DNA from: Chloroflexota bacterium
GTDB taxonomy: Bacteria > Chloroflexota > Anaerolineae > J036 > Brachytrichaceae
Direction: 5' to 3'
Assembly (NCBI GenBank): GCA_025354985.1
Contig: JANXLU010000068.1
Coordinates: 124,001 to 188,000 of the forward strand
Length of the DNA stretch: 64,000 bases
The notes under the pieces were generated by a model, which was not told the origin of the DNA, did not search any database, and was given only the letters and a program-made list of their open reading frames with translations. Of the stretch, positions 10,887 to 21,501 are shown piece by piece. Each line of letters begins with the position of its first letter. Positions within the stretch are counted from its first letter, which is position 1. The position numbers were made by a program, and so were the translations under genes.

Positions 10887-11246
10887 TTAGTAGTAAAGAC
10901 CCCAGTTCGCCGCCGCCTGATCCTCCATCATCGCCGGCTCCCAAACTTCAAGCCCCATCTGGACCGTTGTTACGCGCATGGTCGCTTCTTGCGTTGCGGC
11001 GCGCACCTGCTCAATCATCGCCGGTCCATATGGGCAAAATGGCGTGGTCAGGATCATGGTCACATCCACATTGTCCGCGTTCCACGCGAACTTCCGAATT
11101 AATCCGAGCTCGATCACACTCATGCCGAGTTCAGGATCGTAGACCTTGCGGAGTGCTTCCTTCGCCCGGGCCTCCAAATCCATTGCGTCCAACGGAATGG
11201 CATTCAATTCGGGAACCTCGGCCAAGACATTTTCAGCATTTTCCAT
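10887..11246 (-). CDS. MIP18/DUF59-family iron-sulfur assembly protein (SufT-like)
   Basis: A 119-residue protein with the DUF59 pattern. It has YDPELGMSVIELGLI near residues 36-50 and TTPFCPYGPAMIEQV with the conserved cysteine near residue 72. It ends with a metal/cluster-family tail rather than a DNA-binding region. MIP18 proteins help mature Fe-S proteins, and in bacteria are often annotated SufT. This copy is not in the suf operon, but sufC and sufB are in the same window at 21551-23868. It is divergent from secD with 81 bases between starts. Confidence 0.85.
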   Translation of the reverse strand: MENAENVLAEVPELNAIPLDAMDLEARAKEALRKVYDPELGMSVIELGLIRKFAWNADNVDVTMILTTPFCPYGPAMIEQVRAATQEATMRVTTVQMGLEVWEPAMMEDQAAANWGLYY

Positions 11247-11327
11247 GGAGCAAATTATACAAGTCTCACTCGGTTATAATCTGCCAGCTAATTTTCCAAG
11301 CAAATCTTTAGAGGACGACCCAATTGA

Positions 11328-12722
11328 ATGCGTGAACGGAATTTAATCTCCTTGGTGATCATCGGCTTTATTGCTCTCCTATCCGGCTATATTGCCGCCC
11401 CGATTGAAAAGCCCCAGTTTGTTCGTGATCTTGTTTTCTGGCAGAAGGCTCCTGATCTTCAATTAAAACAAGGGCTGGATCTAAAAGGTGGCATTCAAGT
11501 GCTGCTATCGGCCAACGGTGTGGATAGCAGCCGGGCATTGACCGGCACTATGGAAACCGCCCGAACCATCATCGAGGGCCGTGTCAACAGCTTGGGCACA
11601 ACCGAGGCCAACGTGCAGCTATCCGGTCAGGATCGTATTGCCATTGAACTTCCCGGGGTAACTGATCGCAAGCTTGCGATTGACTTGGTTCAACAAACCG
11701 GCAGCCTGGAGTTTGTTGATGCTGGTGCAAATCCACCGCCGGACGGCACTGTCATTTCCACCACTTATGCGCTCTACCGCGGACTCTTATATCCCGCGAC
11801 TGCGGCCGTTGGCAAGGCAATTACTGGTCAAACGCCTTCTGGAGCGACCATTTATCCGACCGCGTTTACCGGTGAAATTCTTGAGAGCAACGCCGCCCCC
11901 CAGGCGCAAACCGGCCAGGTGGTTGTGCGCTTTAGCATCAAACCGGCCGCCCAAGCCTCATTTCGCGAGTTTACGGGAAGTCGCTTGCAGCGCCCAATGT
12001 GCATTGTTTTGGACGGCAAAGTGCTCTCGTGCCCTCGCATCCAAGCGGCCCTGACAGACGGCGGTGTAATTACCGGCCAGTTCACAAACGACGCCGCTCG
12101 TAACTTTGCAGTCACCCTTAACTATGGTGCGCTGCCAATTCCCCTTTCGATTGAAACTATTCGCGACGTTGGCGCCACGCTGGGTGCCGAATCAGTGCGA
12201 CGAAGCATCATCGCCGGTCTCATCGGTCTAAGTGTGCTGATGCTATTTCTTATTTTGTACTATCGGCTGCCCGGTGCATTGGGCGCACTGGCCCTGATCT
12301 TCTTCACATTGTTCTCGCTGGCGGAATTCGTTTTGCTTCCCGTCACACTTACCTTGCCCGGTATTGCCGGCTTCCTCATCTCAGTAGCTACCGCGGTTGA
12401 CGCCAATATTCTCGTATTTGAACGCTTCAAGGAAGAACTGCGATCTGGCCGCACATTGCGCGGCGCGGTCGAAAGCGCCTTTAACCGCGCCTGGCCTTCG
12501 ATTCGGGATAGCAACGCAAGCACGTTGATCACCTGTGCAGTACTATTTTTATTTGGCAGCACCTTTGGTGCAAGCGCCGTTAAGGGGTTCGCAATCAACC
12601 TTGTTTTGGGAATCTTGACAAGCTTGTTTACTACCATGTTCGTAACACGAACGTTTATGCGCTTGAGCTTCGGTGGCGCGGGTGATGAAATGCGCGAGAA
12701 CAAGACCCTGCTCGGATTCTAA
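11328..12722 (+). CDS. secD: protein translocase subunit SecD
   Basis: A 464-residue inner-membrane protein that helps SecYEG export proteins, using the proton gradient. An N-terminal membrane helix is followed by a large extracytoplasmic domain that begins with the conserved DLQLKQGLDLKGGIQVLL segment. Six C-terminal helices contain the family stretch VDANILVFERFKEEL. It is shorter than the E. coli protein, as in many Gram-positive and Chloroflexota forms. The ATG at 11328 follows AGAGGACGA, and a TATAAT at 11275-11280 lies 48 bases upstream without a clear -35. It forms an operon with secF, five bases downstream. Confidence 0.95.
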   Translation: MRERNLISLVIIGFIALLSGYIAAPIEKPQFVRDLVFWQKAPDLQLKQGLDLKGGIQVLLSANGVDSSRALTGTMETARTIIEGRVNSLGTTEANVQLSGQDRIAIELPGVTDRKLAIDLVQQTGSLEFVDAGANPPPDGTVISTTYALYRGLLYPATAAVGKAITGQTPSGATIYPTAFTGEILESNAAPQAQTGQVVVRFSIKPAAQASFREFTGSRLQRPMCIVLDGKVLSCPRIQAALTDGGVITGQFTNDAARNFAVTLNYGALPIPLSIETIRDVGATLGAESVRRSIIAGLIGLSVLMLFLILYYRLPGALGALALIFFTLFSLAEFVLLPVTLTLPGIAGFLISVATAVDANILVFERFKEELRSGRTLRGAVESAFNRAWPSIRDSNASTLITCAVLFLFGSTFGASAVKGFAINLVLGILTSLFTTMFVTRTFMRLSFGGAGDEMRENKTLLGF

Positions 12723-12727
12723 AAATT

Positions 12728-13678
12728 ATGCTCTATAACATTATTAGCAATCGCAGACGCTACTTTCTGCTTTCATTGGCGATCATCATCCCTGGTCTAA
12801 TCGCAATGATCTACAACGTCGTCACGCTGCCCACTCACACACCGTGGAAGCTCAGCGTTGACTTTCGACCCGGAAGCCGCTACGTCATAAAGTTCCTGGC
12901 TCCAGCAACTGAAGACAAGATCCGCCAGGTCTTCCAGGGTGCGGGTTTTGGTAATGCCGAAATCTCCCGGTTGGGAACCGAGGCGGACAATACCTGGCAG
13001 ATTCGAACGGATTCGCCAAAGGGTGAAGAAGTGCAAAACCTGCGGACCGCGTTGTCGACCCAGGTCGCGCCGGTAGATGAGCCTAATTCGTCCGTGGATT
13101 CTGTAAGCCAACGCGTAGCTGGCGAAGTAACGCGTGCAGCAATCTTTGCCAGCATAGCCGCATCGCTGGTGGTTTTAGTGTATATCTGGTATGCGTTTAG
13201 ATCGGCTCCAAATGCAATGCGCTACAGTGTGTGCGCCATTGTGGCCATGATCCACGATGTATTGGTCGCCGCCGGGCTAACCGCCCTTGTTGGCTTGATC
13301 TTAAATTGGGAAATCGATGCGCTGTTCCTCACAGCCATGTTAACCTTAATTGGCTTTAGCGTGCAGGACACGATCGTGGTCTATGACCGCATCCGCGAAA
13401 ATTTGGTCCGTCACCGCGGCGAGACCTTCCAGGCTATTGTGACCCGGAGCCTGTTGGAAACGGTCCATCGATCGTTGGCGATTTCGCTTTGCAACATGTT
13501 TGTTTTGGTCGCGCTGCTTTTATTTGGTGGTGCAAGCATCAAACAATTTGTTGCGATCCTGCTCATGGGTTTGATCTCCGGCACATATTCATCCATATTC
13601 ACGGCTGTTCCGCTCGTCGTGGCTTGGGCCGAACGAAGCATTTTTGGCTCCAACAAACCTATCGTCACGAACGCATAG
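12728..13678 (+). CDS. secF: protein translocase subunit SecF
   Basis: A 316-residue partner of SecD with six predicted membrane helices. Conserved features include DFRPGSRYVIKF near residue 40 (the family's D(F)xGG-type region, with Pro-Gly in place of Gly-Gly) and the C-terminal VQDTIVVYDRIREN segment. The final helix region, which is LCNMFVLVALLLFGG, also fits. It begins five bases after secD, so the two are translated from one mRNA. The C-terminus (NKPIVTNA) is short. Confidence 0.95.
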   Translation: MLYNIISNRRRYFLLSLAIIIPGLIAMIYNVVTLPTHTPWKLSVDFRPGSRYVIKFLAPATEDKIRQVFQGAGFGNAEISRLGTEADNTWQIRTDSPKGEEVQNLRTALSTQVAPVDEPNSSVDSVSQRVAGEVTRAAIFASIAASLVVLVYIWYAFRSAPNAMRYSVCAIVAMIHDVLVAAGLTALVGLILNWEIDALFLTAMLTLIGFSVQDTIVVYDRIRENLVRHRGETFQAIVTRSLLETVHRSLAISLCNMFVLVALLLFGGASIKQFVAILLMGLISGTYSSIFTAVPLVVAWAERSIFGSNKPIVTNA

Positions 13679-13720
13679 AACTACTGCGGAATGCCGCGCA
13701 ACCTGGTCTGATGGCCGGAT

Positions 13721-14803
13721 GTGTCGTGCAGCGCCACTAAAATTGTTGCCGTGCGTGAAATTGGCGCAACAAACCACGCCTCGCGCCTTAAACGCGTGGT
13801 TCAACAATCGCTTAGGGATTGCGGGCTGGCAGATGCTGTTGCCGGCCCCACCCCGGTCCTAGTCGCGGTATCTGGCGGCGCAGATTCTATCTGCCTGGCC
13901 CATGTCGTCAGTTCGCAGGCAGCAGCTCTTAGCCTTTCGCCAAAAATAGCGCACCTCAATCATCATCTGCGCGGTGAGGCTTCAGATGCTGATGCCGCAT
14001 TTGTAGAAACACTTGCACGAACGCTGGCCAGTGCCTGTTACATCGGTCATGCAGACGTGCGTGCGGTAGCCGACAGGCGCCATCAATCAATTGAGGTTGC
14101 AGCTCGCGAGGAGCGTTATCGATTTCTCGCCAGCGTTGCCCGAAAGGTTTCTGCAAGTGCGGTGCTTGTTGGACATCATGCCGACGACCAGGCCGAAACG
14201 CTGCTATTGCGTCTAATTCGCGGCACGGGAACGGCCGGCCTCGCGGGGATGCGGCTTTCCACACCCATGCCTTATGACGACCGCGACAGTCCGTTGCGGC
14301 TTTTACGTCCGCTGTTGACTGTTACCCGTGATGAAATAACAAGCTACAACAAAGAGCATGACCTTGTGGCACGCGAAGATGCTACAAACTATTCTACGGA
14401 ACATCTGCGCAATAAAGTTCGGATGGAGCTTTTACCAGCGTTAACCCAATACAACCCGGGAATTCGCAAAGTGCTAGCGCACCTTGCCGACAATGCGGCG
14501 GAGGATCAGGAGCTGCTCGCCGGAATTACCGAGGCAGCCTGGCTCCAGTGTGCACTATCCGAACCAGCCCATGCGCTAAGTCGCCGGCTGTGGAAATTGC
14601 AATTGCCAGGTTTACAACGCGCCCTTATTCGCATGGGTGTCGCCCAGGTTCAACATAGCGTACTGGACGTGCGGTTTAATGCAATTGAGGAGGCCCGCGC
14701 AGTCCTCCTTGGTCCTGCGTCCACCGCGCAAATTTCACTAAACTCCCATATTGTCATCAACCTCAATCGCGATGTTATGACGTTTGCGCTCCGCGCTCTA
14801 TAA
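13721..14803 (+). CDS. tilS: tRNA(Ile)-lysidine synthase TilS, short form
   Basis: A 360-residue cytoplasmic enzyme that converts C34 of tRNA-Ile(CAU) to lysidine so that the tRNA reads AUA and is charged with Ile. The ATP-binding PP-loop SGGADS lies near residue 49. HLNHHLRGEASDADA and VGHHADDQAETLLLRLIRG are the other family signatures, and LRNKVRMELLP matches the conserved basic motif. It lacks the extra C-terminal domain of the E. coli protein, like the short forms of some other phyla. The start is uncertain: about 30 residues precede the conserved core. A suitable substrate tRNA is at 43643-43714. Confidence 0.92.
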   Translation: MSCSATKIVAVREIGATNHASRLKRVVQQSLRDCGLADAVAGPTPVLVAVSGGADSICLAHVVSSQAAALSLSPKIAHLNHHLRGEASDADAAFVETLARTLASACYIGHADVRAVADRRHQSIEVAAREERYRFLASVARKVSASAVLVGHHADDQAETLLLRLIRGTGTAGLAGMRLSTPMPYDDRDSPLRLLRPLLTVTRDEITSYNKEHDLVAREDATNYSTEHLRNKVRMELLPALTQYNPGIRKVLAHLADNAAEDQELLAGITEAAWLQCALSEPAHALSRRLWKLQLPGLQRALIRMGVAQVQHSVLDVRFNAIEEARAVLLGPASTAQISLNSHIVINLNRDVMTFALRAL

Positions 14804-14814
14804 TTTCAACTCGA

Positions 14815-16257
14815 ATGGCTGAGTTGAACGAGCCGCTCACAGAGCGTGAATTGGAAGTGGTCCGTTTGGTGGCCACTGGTCTGACAAATAAGGAGGTCGC
14901 CGGCAAGCTGTTTCTTAGTCCAAGCACGGTCAAAGTTCACCTGAACAATATTTTCACCAAGCTTGATTTACACACCCGAACCGAATTGAGCATGCACGCA
15001 GTGCGCAACGGATGGCTTGTCCCAATCCCTGTTCCAGGTGTTTCGCAACAGACCTCCGCCATACGTCCAGTACAAGGACTCACCGAACCACTCCAAATAG
15101 ATTCTGATGTGCAATTGCCCGTGGGGCTTTTGCAGCAGGAGCGGGAGATGGTGGTTCAGCCCGCCCTTCGCGTTGCACCAAATCCGCAACCGCTCCCTCC
15201 ATTGAGCAGTTTCCGTAAAGGTTCGATGATTGTTGTCGCGCTTCTAACCTTACTCGCCTCGCTGAGCCAACTGGCCGCTCCGCACAACCCAGGAGATACG
15301 GCAACTCCCGACGGCACCTCAATCAATGAAAATATTGGCAACGAGGCGCTCCTCCCTGGCGAAGCCAGCCGCTGGTTCCAGCGCGCGGACCTGCCAGTGC
15401 CCCGTGCCCGATCATCCGCTGCAAGCGTCGCAGGAAAAATTTACCTTATCGCAGGAGAAACCAACCAAACGGCGACGGCAGATGTCCAGGAATATGACCG
15501 GACATCAAATACTTGGACGACGCTTGATCAATTGAAGCCGACCGCGGTATGGAACGCCGCTGCATCCACGATTTCTGGGCGAATTTTTGTGACAGGCGGC
15601 AATCTGAGCAATGGTGTTGCTACTGACAAGCTTGAAGTATTTACCCCGGCTGATCGAACGTGGCAGATGCTGGCGCCGATGCCCAAAGCCCTGAGTGGTC
15701 ACGCCATGACCGCTGCGGGCAACAAACTCTATGTGTTCGGTGGCCGAACCGCTACCGGTTTGAGCGCCGATACATACATTTATGATTTGGCAACAAATTC
15801 GTGGCGACGCGGGCCGCCGCTTCCAACACCTCGATCTCTGGCGGGATCAGCCGCATTGGATAATAAACTGTATCTTGTGGGAGGTTTTGATGATGGGCGC
15901 GAGGTCAACACATGTGAATACTTGGATCTGGGTATTGGCGAGTGGAAATCCTGTGCACCGCTTCTGGTTCCGCGCGGCAGTATCGCGTTGATCGCCACTG
16001 GAAACACGCTTTTTGCCATCGGAGGTGGTCGAAGCGGATTCGTAGCAAGCAATGAACGCTATAACCCGAACACAAACCGATGGGTCACGTTTGAAACACC
16101 GTTTGTTGGCGATTGGCACAGTATGGCTTCCGCCACTCTCGGAAGCGAGGCCTACGCAATTGGCGGATACAGCAATGGACGCCGTTTGTCTTTTGCCTAT
16201 GTTTATGAGGCGCAGCAAGCGCAAACGTTCCTCCCAGCCGTGAGCTCCCAACCATGA
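14815..16257 (+). CDS. membrane-spanning LuxR-type regulator with extracytoplasmic Kelch propeller
   Basis: A 480-residue protein with three parts. Residues 1-68 are a GerE/LuxR-type helix-turn-helix: the stretches LTERELEVVRLVATGLTNKE and LSPSTVKVHLNNIFTKL are textbook. Residues 69-135 form a hydrophilic linker, and 136-155 (MIVVALLTLLASLSQLAA) a single membrane helix. Residues 187-470 contain six Kelch-like repeats, visible as repeated GG pairs (VTGG, VFGG, LVGG, AIGG) followed by a Trp per blade. The predicted topology is HTH inside and propeller outside, like ToxR/CadC but with a LuxR HTH. Its stop overlaps the anmK start by four bases, so it may sense cell-wall sugars for the recycling genes. 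That role is inference. Confidence 0.85.
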   Translation: MAELNEPLTERELEVVRLVATGLTNKEVAGKLFLSPSTVKVHLNNIFTKLDLHTRTELSMHAVRNGWLVPIPVPGVSQQTSAIRPVQGLTEPLQIDSDVQLPVGLLQQEREMVVQPALRVAPNPQPLPPLSSFRKGSMIVVALLTLLASLSQLAAPHNPGDTATPDGTSINENIGNEALLPGEASRWFQRADLPVPRARSSAASVAGKIYLIAGETNQTATADVQEYDRTSNTWTTLDQLKPTAVWNAAASTISGRIFVTGGNLSNGVATDKLEVFTPADRTWQMLAPMPKALSGHAMTAAGNKLYVFGGRTATGLSADTYIYDLATNSWRRGPPLPTPRSLAGSAALDNKLYLVGGFDDGREVNTCEYLDLGIGEWKSCAPLLVPRGSIALIATGNTLFAIGGGRSGFVASNERYNPNTNRWVTFETPFVGDWHSMASATLGSEAYAIGGYSNGRRLSFAYVYEAQQAQTFLPAVSSQP

Positions 16258-17432
16258 TCATCGTTGGCTTAATGTCAGGCACCTCGGCGGACGGCGTGGA
16301 CTCCGCAATCATGAGCCTTTCCGGCAAACCGCCAAAACTGCGCTGGAAATTGGTGCACCATTTGTTTCACCCTTACCCGGCAGAATTGCAGCGCAACGTG
16401 CTGGCCGGTATGAAAATCACCGCAACAGTTGATCGTATTTGCGACTTGAACGCTTCATTAGGAGAGTTCTACGCTTCCGTATCGCTTACCGCCCTGGCTG
16501 CCGCCAAAATAAATAGGGCCGATGTCGCCGCAATTGGATGCCACGGTCAAACTGTTTGGCACAACCCGGGTCGGTCCACGTTGCAATTGGGTGAGGCCGC
16601 GGTATTGGCGGAACGCACCGGGATTTACGTCGTCAGTAACTTTAGGGCGCGCGATATCGCCGCGGGTGGTCAGGGTGCACCATTGGTGGCCTACGTCGAC
16701 CAGCTCTTGTTCCAACACGACCAGAAAACCCGTGCGCTCCAAAATCTGGGCGGAATCGGGAATGTAACCTATTTGCCACGGCGCACAATGCTTACCGCGA
16801 CCGAACCGCGACTTCAACCTATTGGTAAACTCACGGCTGCCCAAACAATTGCCTTCGACACCGGCCCTGCGAACATGGTTATCGATGACATTGCCCGACG
16901 CGCCTCCGCAGGCGCGCTGCAGTGCGATCTGGATGGCACCCTTGCGGCCACCGGCGTGCCGCATGGTGCAGTCCTGGAAGAACTGCTTTCGCATTCCTTT
17001 TTTGCCGCCCCGCCTCCAAAGACCACTGGTCGGGAAGTATTTGGCGAACAATATGGTGAGGCTCTTTGGACGTCCATGCTGTCGCGCGGTGCAGCCCCAC
17101 AGGATGTGGCCGCCACAGCAACGATGCTAACCGCCACCTCAATTGCCGAGTCGTATCGCACATTTCTGCCCTCAATTCCAGACGAGGTGGTGTTGAGTGG
17201 CGGTGGTGTTCGCAATCCCACCCTCGTCAAAATGATTTCAGACTGTTTACATGCCGTTAGGCAGGATATTACGATCACGACCTCGGATGCACTCGGCATG
17301 CCTCCCGAGGCAAAGGAAGCCGCGTGCTTCGCGATCCTGGCCTACGAATCCTTACATGGAAGACCCGGCAATCTCCCGAGTGCGACCGGCGCCACCAAAC
17401 GCGTCGTGTTGGGAGACATTACTCAGGGATGA
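16254..17432 (+). CDS. anmK: anhydro-N-acetylmuramic acid kinase AnmK
   Basis: A 392-residue cytoplasmic kinase. It phosphorylates and opens 1,6-anhydro-MurNAc released by peptidoglycan turnover, giving MurNAc-6-phosphate. Motifs include the N-terminal GLMSGTSADGVD, which is diagnostic, then GCHGQTVWH near residue 97, NLGGIGNVT, FDTGPANMVID and VVLSGGGVRNP. The start ATG overlaps the stop of the LuxR-Kelch gene and its own stop overlaps the murQ start, so the three are translationally coupled. The product feeds directly into MurQ. Confidence 0.96.
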   Translation: MIIVGLMSGTSADGVDSAIMSLSGKPPKLRWKLVHHLFHPYPAELQRNVLAGMKITATVDRICDLNASLGEFYASVSLTALAAAKINRADVAAIGCHGQTVWHNPGRSTLQLGEAAVLAERTGIYVVSNFRARDIAAGGQGAPLVAYVDQLLFQHDQKTRALQNLGGIGNVTYLPRRTMLTATEPRLQPIGKLTAAQTIAFDTGPANMVIDDIARRASAGALQCDLDGTLAATGVPHGAVLEELLSHSFFAAPPPKTTGREVFGEQYGEALWTSMLSRGAAPQDVAATATMLTATSIAESYRTFLPSIPDEVVLSGGGVRNPTLVKMISDCLHAVRQDITITTSDALGMPPEAKEAACFAILAYESLHGRPGNLPSATGATKRVVLGDITQG

Positions 17433-18340
17433 GTGACACAACCAGGTTCCTGCCGCTAACGGAACGAAACAACTCTGCTACAAGAAACCTCGACGTGCTG
17501 CCGACCCGGGACATGCTCGCGTTGATCAACAATGAGGACGCCCGTATTGCGGCGGCGGTGCAAACCCAACTTCCGGCTATTTCGTCTGCCGTCGACGCAA
17601 TAACAGTGAGATTGCAAGCCGGTGGCAGGCTGGTCTATGTTGGTGCCGGAACAAGTGGTCGGCTGGGCGTGCTGGATGCGAGCGAAATGCCGCCCACTTT
17701 TGGGGTCTCGCCCGATCTGGTTATCGGTATCATCGCCGGCGGTGATCGGGCGCTTCGAAATCCAATTGAAGGGGCCGAGGATGACACCCTGCAGGGCCAA
17801 ATTGACCTAAGCGCGATTTTCTTGACAGCAAGAGACTGCGTCGTTGGTCTGGCTGCCAGCGGCCGCACGCCATACGTGGTTGGCGCGCTTTCATATGCGC
17901 GAGAAATTGGCGCACTAACCGTCAGCCTGGCGTGCAGCTATCCCGCTCCGGTACACCAGGCGGCCTCAATTAATATCTCCCCTGATGTCGGGCCCGAAGT
18001 GATTTCGGGCAGCACGCGGATGAAGAGCGGTACCGCCCAAAAAATGGTCTTGAATATGATCAGCACGGGCGTCATGATTCGGCTCGGAAAGACCTTTGGC
18101 AACCTCATGGTTGACGTGCGGGCGACCAATACAAAACTCCGCGAACGTGCCCACCGCATCGTCGCAGAGATTTGTGACCTGTCGATTGAGGATGCCGGCA
18201 GCTTGTTGCTTCAGACCGACGGCTCCGTCAAACCGGCTATTGTGATGAGCCGCGCCCATTGCACACTGCCACAAGCACAGGCCGCCTTGCTCACCGCCAG
18301 TGGATCCGTGCGTGCGGCTCTTGATCTACTAAAGGGATGA
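17429..18340 (+). CDS. murQ: N-acetylmuramic acid 6-phosphate etherase MurQ
   Basis: A 303-residue SIS-domain lyase that removes the lactyl ether from MurNAc-6-phosphate to give GlcNAc-6-phosphate. It begins with the family motif LPLTERNNSATRNLDVLPT. The SIS domain carries GAGTSGRLGVLDASEMPPTF near residue 75, and GSTRMKSGTAQKMVLNMIST is the conserved catalytic/substrate region. The ATG at 17429 sits within ATGA overlapping the anmK stop; extending upstream would run through anmK. Together with anmK it makes a complete MurNAc salvage branch. Confidence 0.96.
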   Translation: MSDTTRFLPLTERNNSATRNLDVLPTRDMLALINNEDARIAAAVQTQLPAISSAVDAITVRLQAGGRLVYVGAGTSGRLGVLDASEMPPTFGVSPDLVIGIIAGGDRALRNPIEGAEDDTLQGQIDLSAIFLTARDCVVGLAASGRTPYVVGALSYAREIGALTVSLACSYPAPVHQAASINISPDVGPEVISGSTRMKSGTAQKMVLNMISTGVMIRLGKTFGNLMVDVRATNTKLRERAHRIVAEICDLSIEDAGSLLLQTDGSVKPAIVMSRAHCTLPQAQAALLTASGSVRAALDLLKG

Positions 18341-18344
18341 CGCG

Positions 18345-19751
18345 TTACTCAACCAAGGCGGCCAACAGGTGATCATCATCGAGTACCGTCCGCAAATCCA
18401 ACACAACAGAACCATTGTGTATGCGAGCAATGACCGGCGTACGGCCTGTGCGCAAAGCTTTTGCAAGCACATCAGGTTTGCTCCCATGGCACGCGACTAA
18501 AGCGGTCGGTAAGGTTTCACCAGGCAAGGAACCACCTCCCACTGTCGATGAACCTTCTATTATTGACAGCGTTAGGCCGTTTGCACCCGCCCACGACGGA
18601 AGTTGCCGTACAAGTGCTGTCGCCCGGTTATGAATTGACGATGGGCTGGCCGCCATCATGCGCACCACGGGCACATGCAATTGTGCTTCACCACGCACGT
18701 AGTGGGTCAACGTAGCGTCAAGCGCCGCGATGGTTAACTTGTCAGCCCTCATGGCGCGCGCCAGGGGATGCTTGCGAATGCGCCCAATCGATGCGCGCTT
18801 GCCAACTAAAATTCCGGCTTGCGGGCCGCCCAACAACTTGTCGCCACTAAAACAGACCACATCTGCCCCGGCCAGTACGCCGTCATGCACCATGGGTTCC
18901 CTACTCAAACCAAATACAGAAGTGTCTACCAATGCACCTGAACCCAAATCTTGCAATAGCAAAACCGGTATTGTTCTCTCCCGGACCAAGCCACCCAGGT
19001 CCGCAATGGACACCTCCTGGGTAAACCCAATCATCTTGAAGTTGCTTGGATGCACGTGCAACAGCGCGCTTCCATCGCCCGGGCTTTCATCAAGCGCCGC
19101 CGCATAGTCTTGTAAGCGAACCCTATTAGTGGTCCCAACCTCACGTAATAGAGCACCACTTTGCGCCATAATTTCCGGCACGCGAAATCCACCTCCAATC
19201 TCAACCAATTGCCCGCGTGCAATGACGACTGGTTTACCGTGAGCAAGCGCAGTTAACATCAACATGGTTGCACTAGCGCAGTTATTTACAACCAGGGCGT
19301 CCTCGCATCCAAGCAACTCCCTCAACAGGGAAGCAACTGCCCAACCCCGCGTACCGCGCTCGCCTGTTTCAAGGTCATATTCGAGTGGTGAATAGGACCG
19401 TGCAACCTCATTTACCGCCTGCTGCGCCGCCAGACTCAATGGCGCACGTCCAAGATTCGTGTGCAAGATCACGCCGGTGGCGTTTATTACCCCGAAGTCC
19501 TTCCGTGCCATCTCATCGGTTAAAAGCTGTGACTGCGCAGCAGCGATTAGGTCAGCCACGGTGGGTGCCGGGCCACCGTCTGCAACGTTGGCTCGGGCGG
19601 AACCAAGTGCGCTACGCAACGCAGTTACCGTTCGGGCACGACCTTCCCGAGCCACCAAACTCGCGCTAAGTCCCAGCAATTGATCGACGCTTGGCAGACT
19701 GCGGAACCGTTCGTTTGACACAGAGTGATTATGCCATTTACATTTAGGCAT
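18345..19751 (-). CDS. selA: L-seryl-tRNA(Sec) selenium transferase SelA
   Basis: A 468-residue PLP enzyme that converts Ser-tRNA(Sec) to Sec-tRNA(Sec) with selenophosphate. It has the N-terminal FRSLPSVDQLL region and the central INATGVILHTNLGRAPLS motif. The PLP lysine lies in SGDKLLGGPQAG, with LRADKLTIAALDATL after it. I chose the ATG at 19751 because 27 further upstream residues are unlike the family. It is divergent from a secreted protease gene with only 16 bases between starts. No selB, selD or tRNA(Sec) is in the window, so selenocysteine use is implied but not shown here. The stop is four bases from that of murQ (convergent). Confidence 0.93.
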   Translation of the reverse strand: MPKCKWHNHSVSNERFRSLPSVDQLLGLSASLVAREGRARTVTALRSALGSARANVADGGPAPTVADLIAAAQSQLLTDEMARKDFGVINATGVILHTNLGRAPLSLAAQQAVNEVARSYSPLEYDLETGERGTRGWAVASLLRELLGCEDALVVNNCASATMLMLTALAHGKPVVIARGQLVEIGGGFRVPEIMAQSGALLREVGTTNRVRLQDYAAALDESPGDGSALLHVHPSNFKMIGFTQEVSIADLGGLVRERTIPVLLLQDLGSGALVDTSVFGLSREPMVHDGVLAGADVVCFSGDKLLGGPQAGILVGKRASIGRIRKHPLARAMRADKLTIAALDATLTHYVRGEAQLHVPVVRMMAASPSSIHNRATALVRQLPSWAGANGLTLSIIEGSSTVGGGSLPGETLPTALVACHGSKPDVLAKALRTGRTPVIARIHNGSVVLDLRTVLDDDHLLAALVE

Positions 19752-19767
19752 GGTAGTGTCTTGTTCA

Positions 19768-21501
19768 ATGCGTATGATGCTTTTTCGGAGAGCTTTGATT
19801 GGCGTCACTGGTGTTATCTTTATTTTGGCCATTTCACGTCATGTCGTCGCGCGTGAAATTGCGCCAAATTCCGGGGCACTTTCTTTGCCATCGCAAGTGT
19901 CTCGTCAATCCACGTTGTCCTTGCTGCTGCGAGCAGAAGCGACGGGTGAGCTTGACACGCCCACCACCGACTTGTATTTGGCCCTCGCGCTTACAAACGA
20001 TCCGCGGTTGCCACCAGCTTATGTTGGACAAGGGACTTGGCGCGGAACATTAGCTCTGCTGCGAATAAGGCGCCACCTCAGTACGGCAACAACTCCGCCA
20101 GGCTTGGTTCGATCTGGGACCGCAACGTCGCAAGCAATGTACACCGAAATTGCATCGATCCTGTCTACAGACCAATGTGACAACAAGTCGGAAAATTTGA
20201 CAAGTGTGCTCGATACCGATCACTTCCATATTGAGTATTCACCAGCGCTCGTAAGCAATGGATTGACAATTAGTGACTTCGCCAAATGGCTTGAAATTGC
20301 ATGGAATACTGAGATAGGAACGTTCGGCTGGGCGGCGCCACCTATAAAGTCCAATGCACCTTCTCACAAATACCCCGTACGTGTTTCGCCCTTGTCGGGC
20401 GGATTGCTTGGCGTTACAACCGACGTCGGCACGTACGCAGGCTTTATAGGCGACAACCCGAATACTCCGTGGAATGACGTTGGTGCTGAAGCATCTTGCA
20501 TGGTCATTAACTCAACCATCGGACTGTACCGGAATGCCTCAAATATCCTGGCTGCTACAGCAGCGCACGAATTTGCACATTCCGTGCAATTCGGAATGAA
20601 TTCCTTTCCGACACAAAACGGTGAGGACATGTTCGTCGAGAGTACCGCCGTATTAACAGAGGACGAAGTTGTTGACGGTTCAAATGACGGGATAAGCTAC
20701 TTGTGGCCCGACCTCAAGACCTGTATGGCGCTATTCACTTCAAACTCAACAACTGATTTTTTCCCATACGAGTATTGGATCGTGTTCCGCGCGATGACGG
20801 AGCGGTATGGACATGCTGTTGCCGGAGGCATAGAACAATGGATTCAAGATGTTTTTGAAACGGCCTCAATTCAGGGTAATTGGACGCTGGACACATTCAA
20901 CACTGCTTTTGCGAGGCGCGGCACGACTCTAGGTCAAGCGTTTCATGAAGCCGCCATCAGCATGAAATTTGATAAGCAGTGCTCTGCAACGTACCGACAG
21001 CCCTACTGCTTCATTGAGGGTGCCAGCTATGCAGCCGCAACGGCCAATGGGCAAACCATCAATCCGGCAATCGCTTATGACGCCGTCCTGACGACACCCG
21101 CAAGCATTGCCGCCGGTTCAATTGCCGACAATTACACTGCGGCTTGGATTCTCTTACCGGGCGTTGCCGCCAGCCTGCACGTTACAGTCGAAAACATTTC
21201 GTCGGGTGGAGAGTTTCGCAGCAGTCTGGCGTGCGACACTGGAGAAACAATGGTAATCGTGCCACTAACCGTGGCCAATCCAAACAACTCGCAATCCAGC
21301 CGTGTAAGTTTGCCAGGTCAAGCTCAATCGGGGGCATTTCCAGTTGGTTCAAGCTGCAAGCAACTTGCGCTGGTGATCACCAATCAGGCTCAAACTGCAG
21401 CAGCACCAATCTCTTGTCCGCTTGAATCCTTTCGTGTGCGCATGTCGACGACGCCGATTGTCCTTGATAAACATATTCGGCTTCCCTTTGTGAAAAACTA
21501 A
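19768..21501 (+). CDS. secreted putative zinc metalloprotease, MXAN_6640-like
   Basis: A 577-residue exported protein. The N-terminus is basic (MRMMLFRR), followed by a hydrophobic core (ALIGVTGVIFILAIS), so a signal peptide is likely. Near residue 265 is TAAHEFAHSVQFG, an HExxH zinc site, and about 25 residues later VESTAVLTEDEV could provide the third Glu ligand. The preceding layout (DHFHIEY... GTFGWAAPP... GAEASCMVINS) resembles the MXAN_6640-type putative metalloproteases as I remember them. The last residues are IRLPFVKN. An in-frame start at 19750 would overlap selA, so 19768 is preferred. The rest of the C-terminal half (about 350-577) is unrecognised and probably beta-rich. Confidence 0.65.
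   Translation: MRMMLFRRALIGVTGVIFILAISRHVVAREIAPNSGALSLPSQVSRQSTLSLLLRAEATGELDTPTTDLYLALALTNDPRLPPAYVGQGTWRGTLALLRIRRHLSTATTPPGLVRSGTATSQAMYTEIASILSTDQCDNKSENLTSVLDTDHFHIEYSPALVSNGLTISDFAKWLEIAWNTEIGTFGWAAPPIKSNAPSHKYPVRVSPLSGGLLGVTTDVGTYAGFIGDNPNTPWNDVGAEASCMVINSTIGLYRNASNILAATAAHEFAHSVQFGMNSFPTQNGEDMFVESTAVLTEDEVVDGSNDGISYLWPDLKTCMALFTSNSTTDFFPYEYWIVFRAMTERYGHAVAGGIEQWIQDVFETASIQGNWTLDTFNTAFARRGTTLGQAFHEAAISMKFDKQCSATYRQPYCFIEGASYAAATANGQTINPAIAYDAVLTTPASIAAGSIADNYTAAWILLPGVAASLHVTVENISSGGEFRSSLACDTGETMVIVPLTVANPNNSQSSRVSLPGQAQSGAFPVGSSCKQLALVITNQAQTAAAPISCPLESFRVRMSTTPIVLDKHIRLPFVKN

Follow-up and report, generated by a model that had tools for sequence, protein, structure and literature searches.

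Does the position of a gene reveal what its product senses? The question is raised by an open reading frame of a Chloroflexota bacterium, here called LK, which encodes a LuxR-type helix-turn-helix (HTH), a transmembrane (TM) segment and a Kelch propeller, and which directly precedes the MurNAc-recycling genes anmK and murQ in the window, that is, the whole 64,000-nucleotide stretch of DNA analysed here (Table 1). The stop codon of LK (TGA, 16255-16257) overlaps the ATG of anmK at 16254, and that of anmK (17430-17432) overlaps the ATG of murQ at 17429; both 4-nt overlaps described in an earlier note on this DNA are thus present. The products of the two genes pass the NCBIfam cut-offs for AnmK (440 bits, cut-off 387) and MurQ (371.5 bits, cut-off 302). 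Since tilS ends just 5' of LK, the latter comes after secD-secF-tilS.

Table 1. The LK gene, its neighbours and the parts of its product, in window coordinates
Feature	Position	Strand	Remarks
tilS	13721..14803	+	11 nt before LK; conserved neighbour across the window's family
LK, predicted LuxR-HTH / TM / Kelch regulator	14815..16257	+	ORF, ATG start, 480 aa
GerE/LuxR-type HTH, residues 7-62	14833..15000	+	Pfam, AlphaFold2 helices, ortholog conservation
Recognition helix of the HTH, about residues 36-50
Single transmembrane helix (predicted), residues 132-154	15208..15276	+	AlphaFold2 helix; hydrophobic segment in orthologs
Six-bladed Kelch propeller, residues 187-465	15373..16209	+	Pfam Kelch, AlphaFold2, structural matches
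Pro474 codon, C-terminal F-L-P motif	16234..16236	+	invariant in 74/74 full-length orthologs
anmK	16254..17432	+	4-nt overlap with LK; adjoins LK in the window's genus only
murQ	17429..18340	+	4-nt overlap with anmK; LK neighbour in the window genome only

Domain architecture of LK

The N-terminal head belongs to the LuxR/GerE HTH family (Pfam GerE, residues 7-62, 69.3 bits against a cut-off of 23.5), and the C-terminal half carries Kelch repeats (Kelch_1, 181.7 bits over 5 stretches). A structure predicted with AlphaFold2 on 35 orthologs has a mean pLDDT of 85.2, with the head, the helix and the propeller mostly above 90. It contains an HTH bundle with helices within residues 10-64, a 23-residue helix at 132-154 (block pLDDT 94) and a complete six-bladed propeller, a fold on which Pfam, AlphaFold2 and Foldseek concur, whose last blade is closed by an N-terminal strand at 187-189. 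Most of the linker (76-117) and of the stalk (156-177) has a pLDDT below 50.

The same plan recurs in the orthologs, of which 79 sequences were assembled and 74 kept as full-length, 5 being incomplete. In all 74, a single hydrophobic segment dominates at the corresponding position, and lysine and arginine residues are more numerous on its N-terminal side in 49 of them, equal in number in 22 and fewer in 3. The HTH is the best-conserved part (mean 3.16 bits), followed by the Kelch part (2.11), the stalk (0.89) and the linker (67-131; 0.75 bits), and the invariant Kelch positions are mostly structural glycine, tryptophan and proline residues of the repeat. LK is accordingly predicted, from its sequence and model, to cross the membrane once with its N-terminus inside and its C-terminal domain extracytoplasmic, the layout of ToxR and CadC, and the Kelch part is thereby predicted to lie outside the cell. 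The earlier description of LK as a GerE HTH, one TM helix and a six-bladed Kelch propeller is confirmed by the agreement of Pfam, AlphaFold2 and the 74 orthologs, and the same three lines support, as a prediction, the proposed one-component layout of ToxR/CadC type built from other parts.

Two details of the protein sequence can be added. Residue 44 in the recognition helix (14944-14946), which presumably corresponds to a base-contacting position of NarL, is an arginine in 64 of the 74 orthologs and an asparagine in the three full-length sequences from the window's own genus and in locus L039. At the C-terminus (16228-16236), where model confidence is low, the orthologs share an F/Y-L/I-P motif. 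Some exported proteins encoded near LK have a similar end, for example RLPFVKN in the ORF ending at 21501; the exported-looking protein at 19750-21501 has a HEFAH motif and scores 80.7 bits with the NCBIfam MXAN_6640 metalloprotease model, against a cut-off of 140. As a general export motif F/Y-L/I-P was rejected: it occurs in 4 of 66 Anaerolineae-side ORFs against 16 of 506, which is not significant, and the enrichment in ORFs of the other group is weak (4/41 against 4/192, p 0.034).

Comparison with known regulators

The heads of ToxR and CadC are winged helices (Trans_reg_C). LK has a GerE head instead, with Trans_reg_C absent from its Pfam matches, and therefore falls outside the ToxR/CadC family. 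The order of head, TM helix and sensor in one chain is nevertheless common to these proteins: excerpts of three papers describe CadC and ToxR as having an N-terminal head that binds DNA in the cytoplasm, a single TM helix and a C-terminal extracytoplasmic sensor (PMC6320335, PMC5430869, PMC7496328). The sensors differ, being CadC or ToxR periplasmic domains there and a Kelch propeller in LK, and so do the phyla. With the LuxR/NarL response regulators LK shares the HTH family, and its head matches the NarL, FimZ and UhpA models. However, this head is N-terminal and membrane-tethered, no receiver domain is among the Pfam matches of LK, and every response-regulator NCBIfam cut-off among the matches listed lies above its score.

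Propellers also serve as the sensors of Bacteroides hybrid two-component systems. In LK, by contrast, neither a histidine kinase nor a receiver is among the Pfam matches. According to an excerpt of one paper, these systems unite a membrane sensor and a DNA-binding output in one protein for polysaccharide control (PMC11253607). No description of a LuxR-TM-Kelch protein was noticed in the literature searched, as far as the opening lines of abstracts reveal. The parts of LK are known individually, and sequence databases may well list the combined architecture.

Distribution and descent

The LK architecture, full-length or cut by a contig end alone, is found in 38 of 40 relatives of the window genome; the two genomes in which it was not detected (G022 and G026) are assemblies 82 and 70% complete. 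In an even sample of 301 Chloroflexota genomes, the head and the propeller occur together in at least 46 (45 in one piece, G205 in two), a count made by hand from a table and a lower bound because 5 candidates per genome were scored. The families concerned include two (f36 and f46) from another class of the phylum than that of the window. Within the window's own class, 18 of 19 sampled genomes of family f18 gave no LK match at the cut-off used, and one gave a weak match. When genome contigs were searched with the LK sequence by itself, no relative was detected. An alignment search found at least 80 loci, including ones from Candidatus Roseilinea, Bellilinea and Anaerolinea, which assign the window's family to the Anaerolineae; those with Kelch coverage all belong to Chloroflexota or Anaerolineae records among the matches listed. 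A search of plasmids for LK gave no match.

In a tree of LK, the window's family (f1) forms one clade with support of 100/99 and there are few label changes between groups, although several long branches are unsure. This pattern is best read as mainly vertical inheritance of LK within Chloroflexota. LK would be an old receptor of the Anaerolineae and of a second Chloroflexota class, apparently Chloroflexia.

Linkage to anmK and murQ

From the overlaps, the earlier note had concluded that LK is made together with AnmK and MurQ and that its Kelch part could sense muropeptides or another wall sugar; LK would then control its own MurNAc-recycling operon. The overlaps in the window genome, and the adjacency of anmK to LK in all four genomes of the window's genus (G000-G003), are what this reading has in its favour. 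The whole-genome search detected anmK in 16 of the 40 relatives. All 16 also have LK, but 22 further relatives have LK and lack anmK, and in the 12 genomes with both that lie outside the window's genus the two genes are never adjacent: anmK is on another contig or, in the single-contig genome G021, about 3.8 Mb away by coordinate. In most of these 12 genomes murQ lies beside anmK, whereas it adjoins LK-anmK in the window genome only and is on another contig in the three sister genomes (G001-G003). Adjacency to anmK thus holds in 4 of 16 genomes, all of one genus, and adjacency to murQ in one, so the linkage is not conserved. An evolutionary survey of this linkage had been set beforehand as a refuting test, and the link to wall recycling fails it.

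The idea that LK is made with the two enzymes fares better in part. It stands for the window genome on account of the overlaps and fails in the three sister genomes, where a repeat-rich spacer of 73-152 nt separates LK from anmK; translational coupling of LK and anmK is therefore seen in the window genome only. In the window lineage, anmK and murQ may share the LK transcript. The spacers at loci L052, L053 and L058 contain short tandem or inverted repeats, and the two stretches folded form hairpins (-25.3 kcal/mol, z -5.2 in G002; -28.9 kcal/mol, z -2.8 in G003). In seven genomes from other genera of the window's family (G004, G008, G010, G015, G020, G021 and G023), adjacent matches in one frame of 689-770 aa look like an AnmK-MurQ fusion.

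The position of anmK and murQ is a local feature of the genus, not a pointer to the function of LK. A receptor found in 38 of 40 relatives gives no support to muropeptide or wall-sugar sensing by way of a gene present in 16, and we regard control of a MurNAc-recycling operon by LK as highly improbable, all the more as the LK fold is nearest to Kelch domains of Keap1 type. There is no sign that anmK and murQ form the conserved target of LK, or that its ligand is a wall sugar.

The fold of the propeller

The best structural matches of the propeller, among those listed, are NS1-BP, designed six-bladed Kelch proteins and Keap1/KLHL proteins. The Kelch domains of Keap1, KLHL proteins and NS1-BP superpose on LK with Z 37-39 and an rmsd of about 1.5-2.2 over about 255-281 residues. 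They have the six-bladed fold in common with LK, at 21-28% identity; they accompany BTB domains, whereas LK has an HTH and a TM helix, and the LK propeller is bacterial and predicted to be extracellular. With the N-acetylneuraminate epimerase NanM/YjhT, LK has Kelch repeats in common. The Pfam NANM model (67.9 bits, cut-off 45) is one of several Kelch models that LK passes, but LK falls far below both NCBIfam NanM cut-offs (58.7 against 416 bits and 55.7 against 256.35 bits), and its stretches each cover the NanM/YjhT profile only in part. NanM does not appear among the structural matches listed, an absence that carries no weight. The propeller is, as modelled, nearest in fold to the protein-binding Keap1/KLHL Kelch domains and not specifically to any sugar enzyme. 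A sugar-enzyme reading was rejected on the NCBIfam scores and the fold matches. Loop conservation is 1.89 bits at the top of the propeller and 1.70 at the bottom, with 458 of 5000 permutations as high, which makes no convincing case for a conserved ligand face.

That the closest folds are protein-binding could mean that a separate partner does the sensing for LK, as ToxS does for ToxR, with the propeller as its docking platform. Tell against it, tilS aside, no gene keeps a fixed place beside LK across many families. We consider the arrangement rather unlikely.

Other neighbours of LK

Upstream, tilS occupies the position directly before LK in 20 of 38 loci, namely 19 of the 23 in the window's family (f1) and L041; two of the four remaining f1 loci (L053 and L055) begin at a contig edge. 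Among the 79 loci, tilS lies two genes before LK in three further Anaerolineae. In other families the upstream neighbours are varied (FAD synthetase, PfkB kinase, AFOR, ABC-2 permease, CNNM). A scan of 11000-19900 for promoters and terminators gave 7 and 8, against 5.3 and 11.3 in shuffles, and so did not rise above shuffles. Shortly before LK, a TATGATC block is fully conserved in seven f36 loci (L147-L149, L151, L152, L154 and L155); its resemblance to a -10 element means that LK probably has its own promoter in f36.

Representatives of the neighbour clusters include GT4 and GT2 glycosyltransferases and a methyltransferase (Pfam). Outside f1, where 38 of 56 loci have enough flank to be counted, 13 of the 38 have GT2/GT4 genes no more than about 6.5 kb from LK, compared with 3 of 40 random stretches; at genus level, 9 of 31 units have them (p 0.025), among them f36 and Anaerolineaceae lineages and hence two classes. 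These counts would fit LK as a receptor-regulator of neighbouring cell-surface glycan genes (glycosyltransferases and methyltransferases) that senses the state of the envelope or surface. However, the window's own family shows such genes in 2 of 14 loci, at or near background, no binding site was found, and, with models derived from the LK neighbours themselves, control stretches from 10 genomes and a modest p, the glycosyltransferase signal is a hint at most. This role is a tentative possibility, and weak evidence points to surface-glycan genes in the LK regulon.

Proposed mechanism

LK is likely to be a membrane-integrated one-component transcription regulator in which a LuxR head is combined with a Kelch receptor. 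In its sequence and model, an unstructured linker of variable sequence joins a LuxR/GerE head of canonical type to a TM helix, which basic residues precede; a short and variable stalk then leads to the propeller. Whatever the propeller binds outside the cell, be it ligand or partner, would probably be protein-, peptide- or glycan-like. Binding would alter how the tethered head dimerises or where it lies, and the head would then switch promoters directly from the membrane, as in ToxR and CadC. The place of LK close behind tilS in the window's family suggests constitutive expression, in which case activity rather than amount would be regulated.

Other membrane-tethered regulators are known to be released by regulated intramembrane proteolysis, and the head of LK could be freed in this way instead of acting at the membrane. 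Its long, unconserved linker would tolerate a cut; yet a flexible linker fits CadC-like action equally well, and no protease is among the ten neighbour-cluster representatives scanned. We think release by proteolysis quite unlikely. Returning to a head that acts at the membrane, the boldest account would be that LK represents an undescribed type of receptor, characteristic of Chloroflexota, in which a Keap1-like surface propeller responds to a protein or glycan signal and directly sets the transcription of surface-glycan genes through the tethered LuxR head. In the window's genus the head would have been partly retargeted, in line with its asparagine at residue 44, while anmK came to adjoin LK. 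As a whole, this account is unlikely.

Significance

The locus calls for caution in taking a 4-base overlap as a guide to function, since the conspicuous neighbour of LK is a peculiarity of one genus. The best-known one-component membrane regulators are proteobacterial proteins with winged helices. That a protein with a LuxR head and a Kelch tip has been kept in two Chloroflexota classes suggests that the same principle of signalling has been realised from other parts. LK would be an old receptor in a phylum where signalling at the envelope has received little study.
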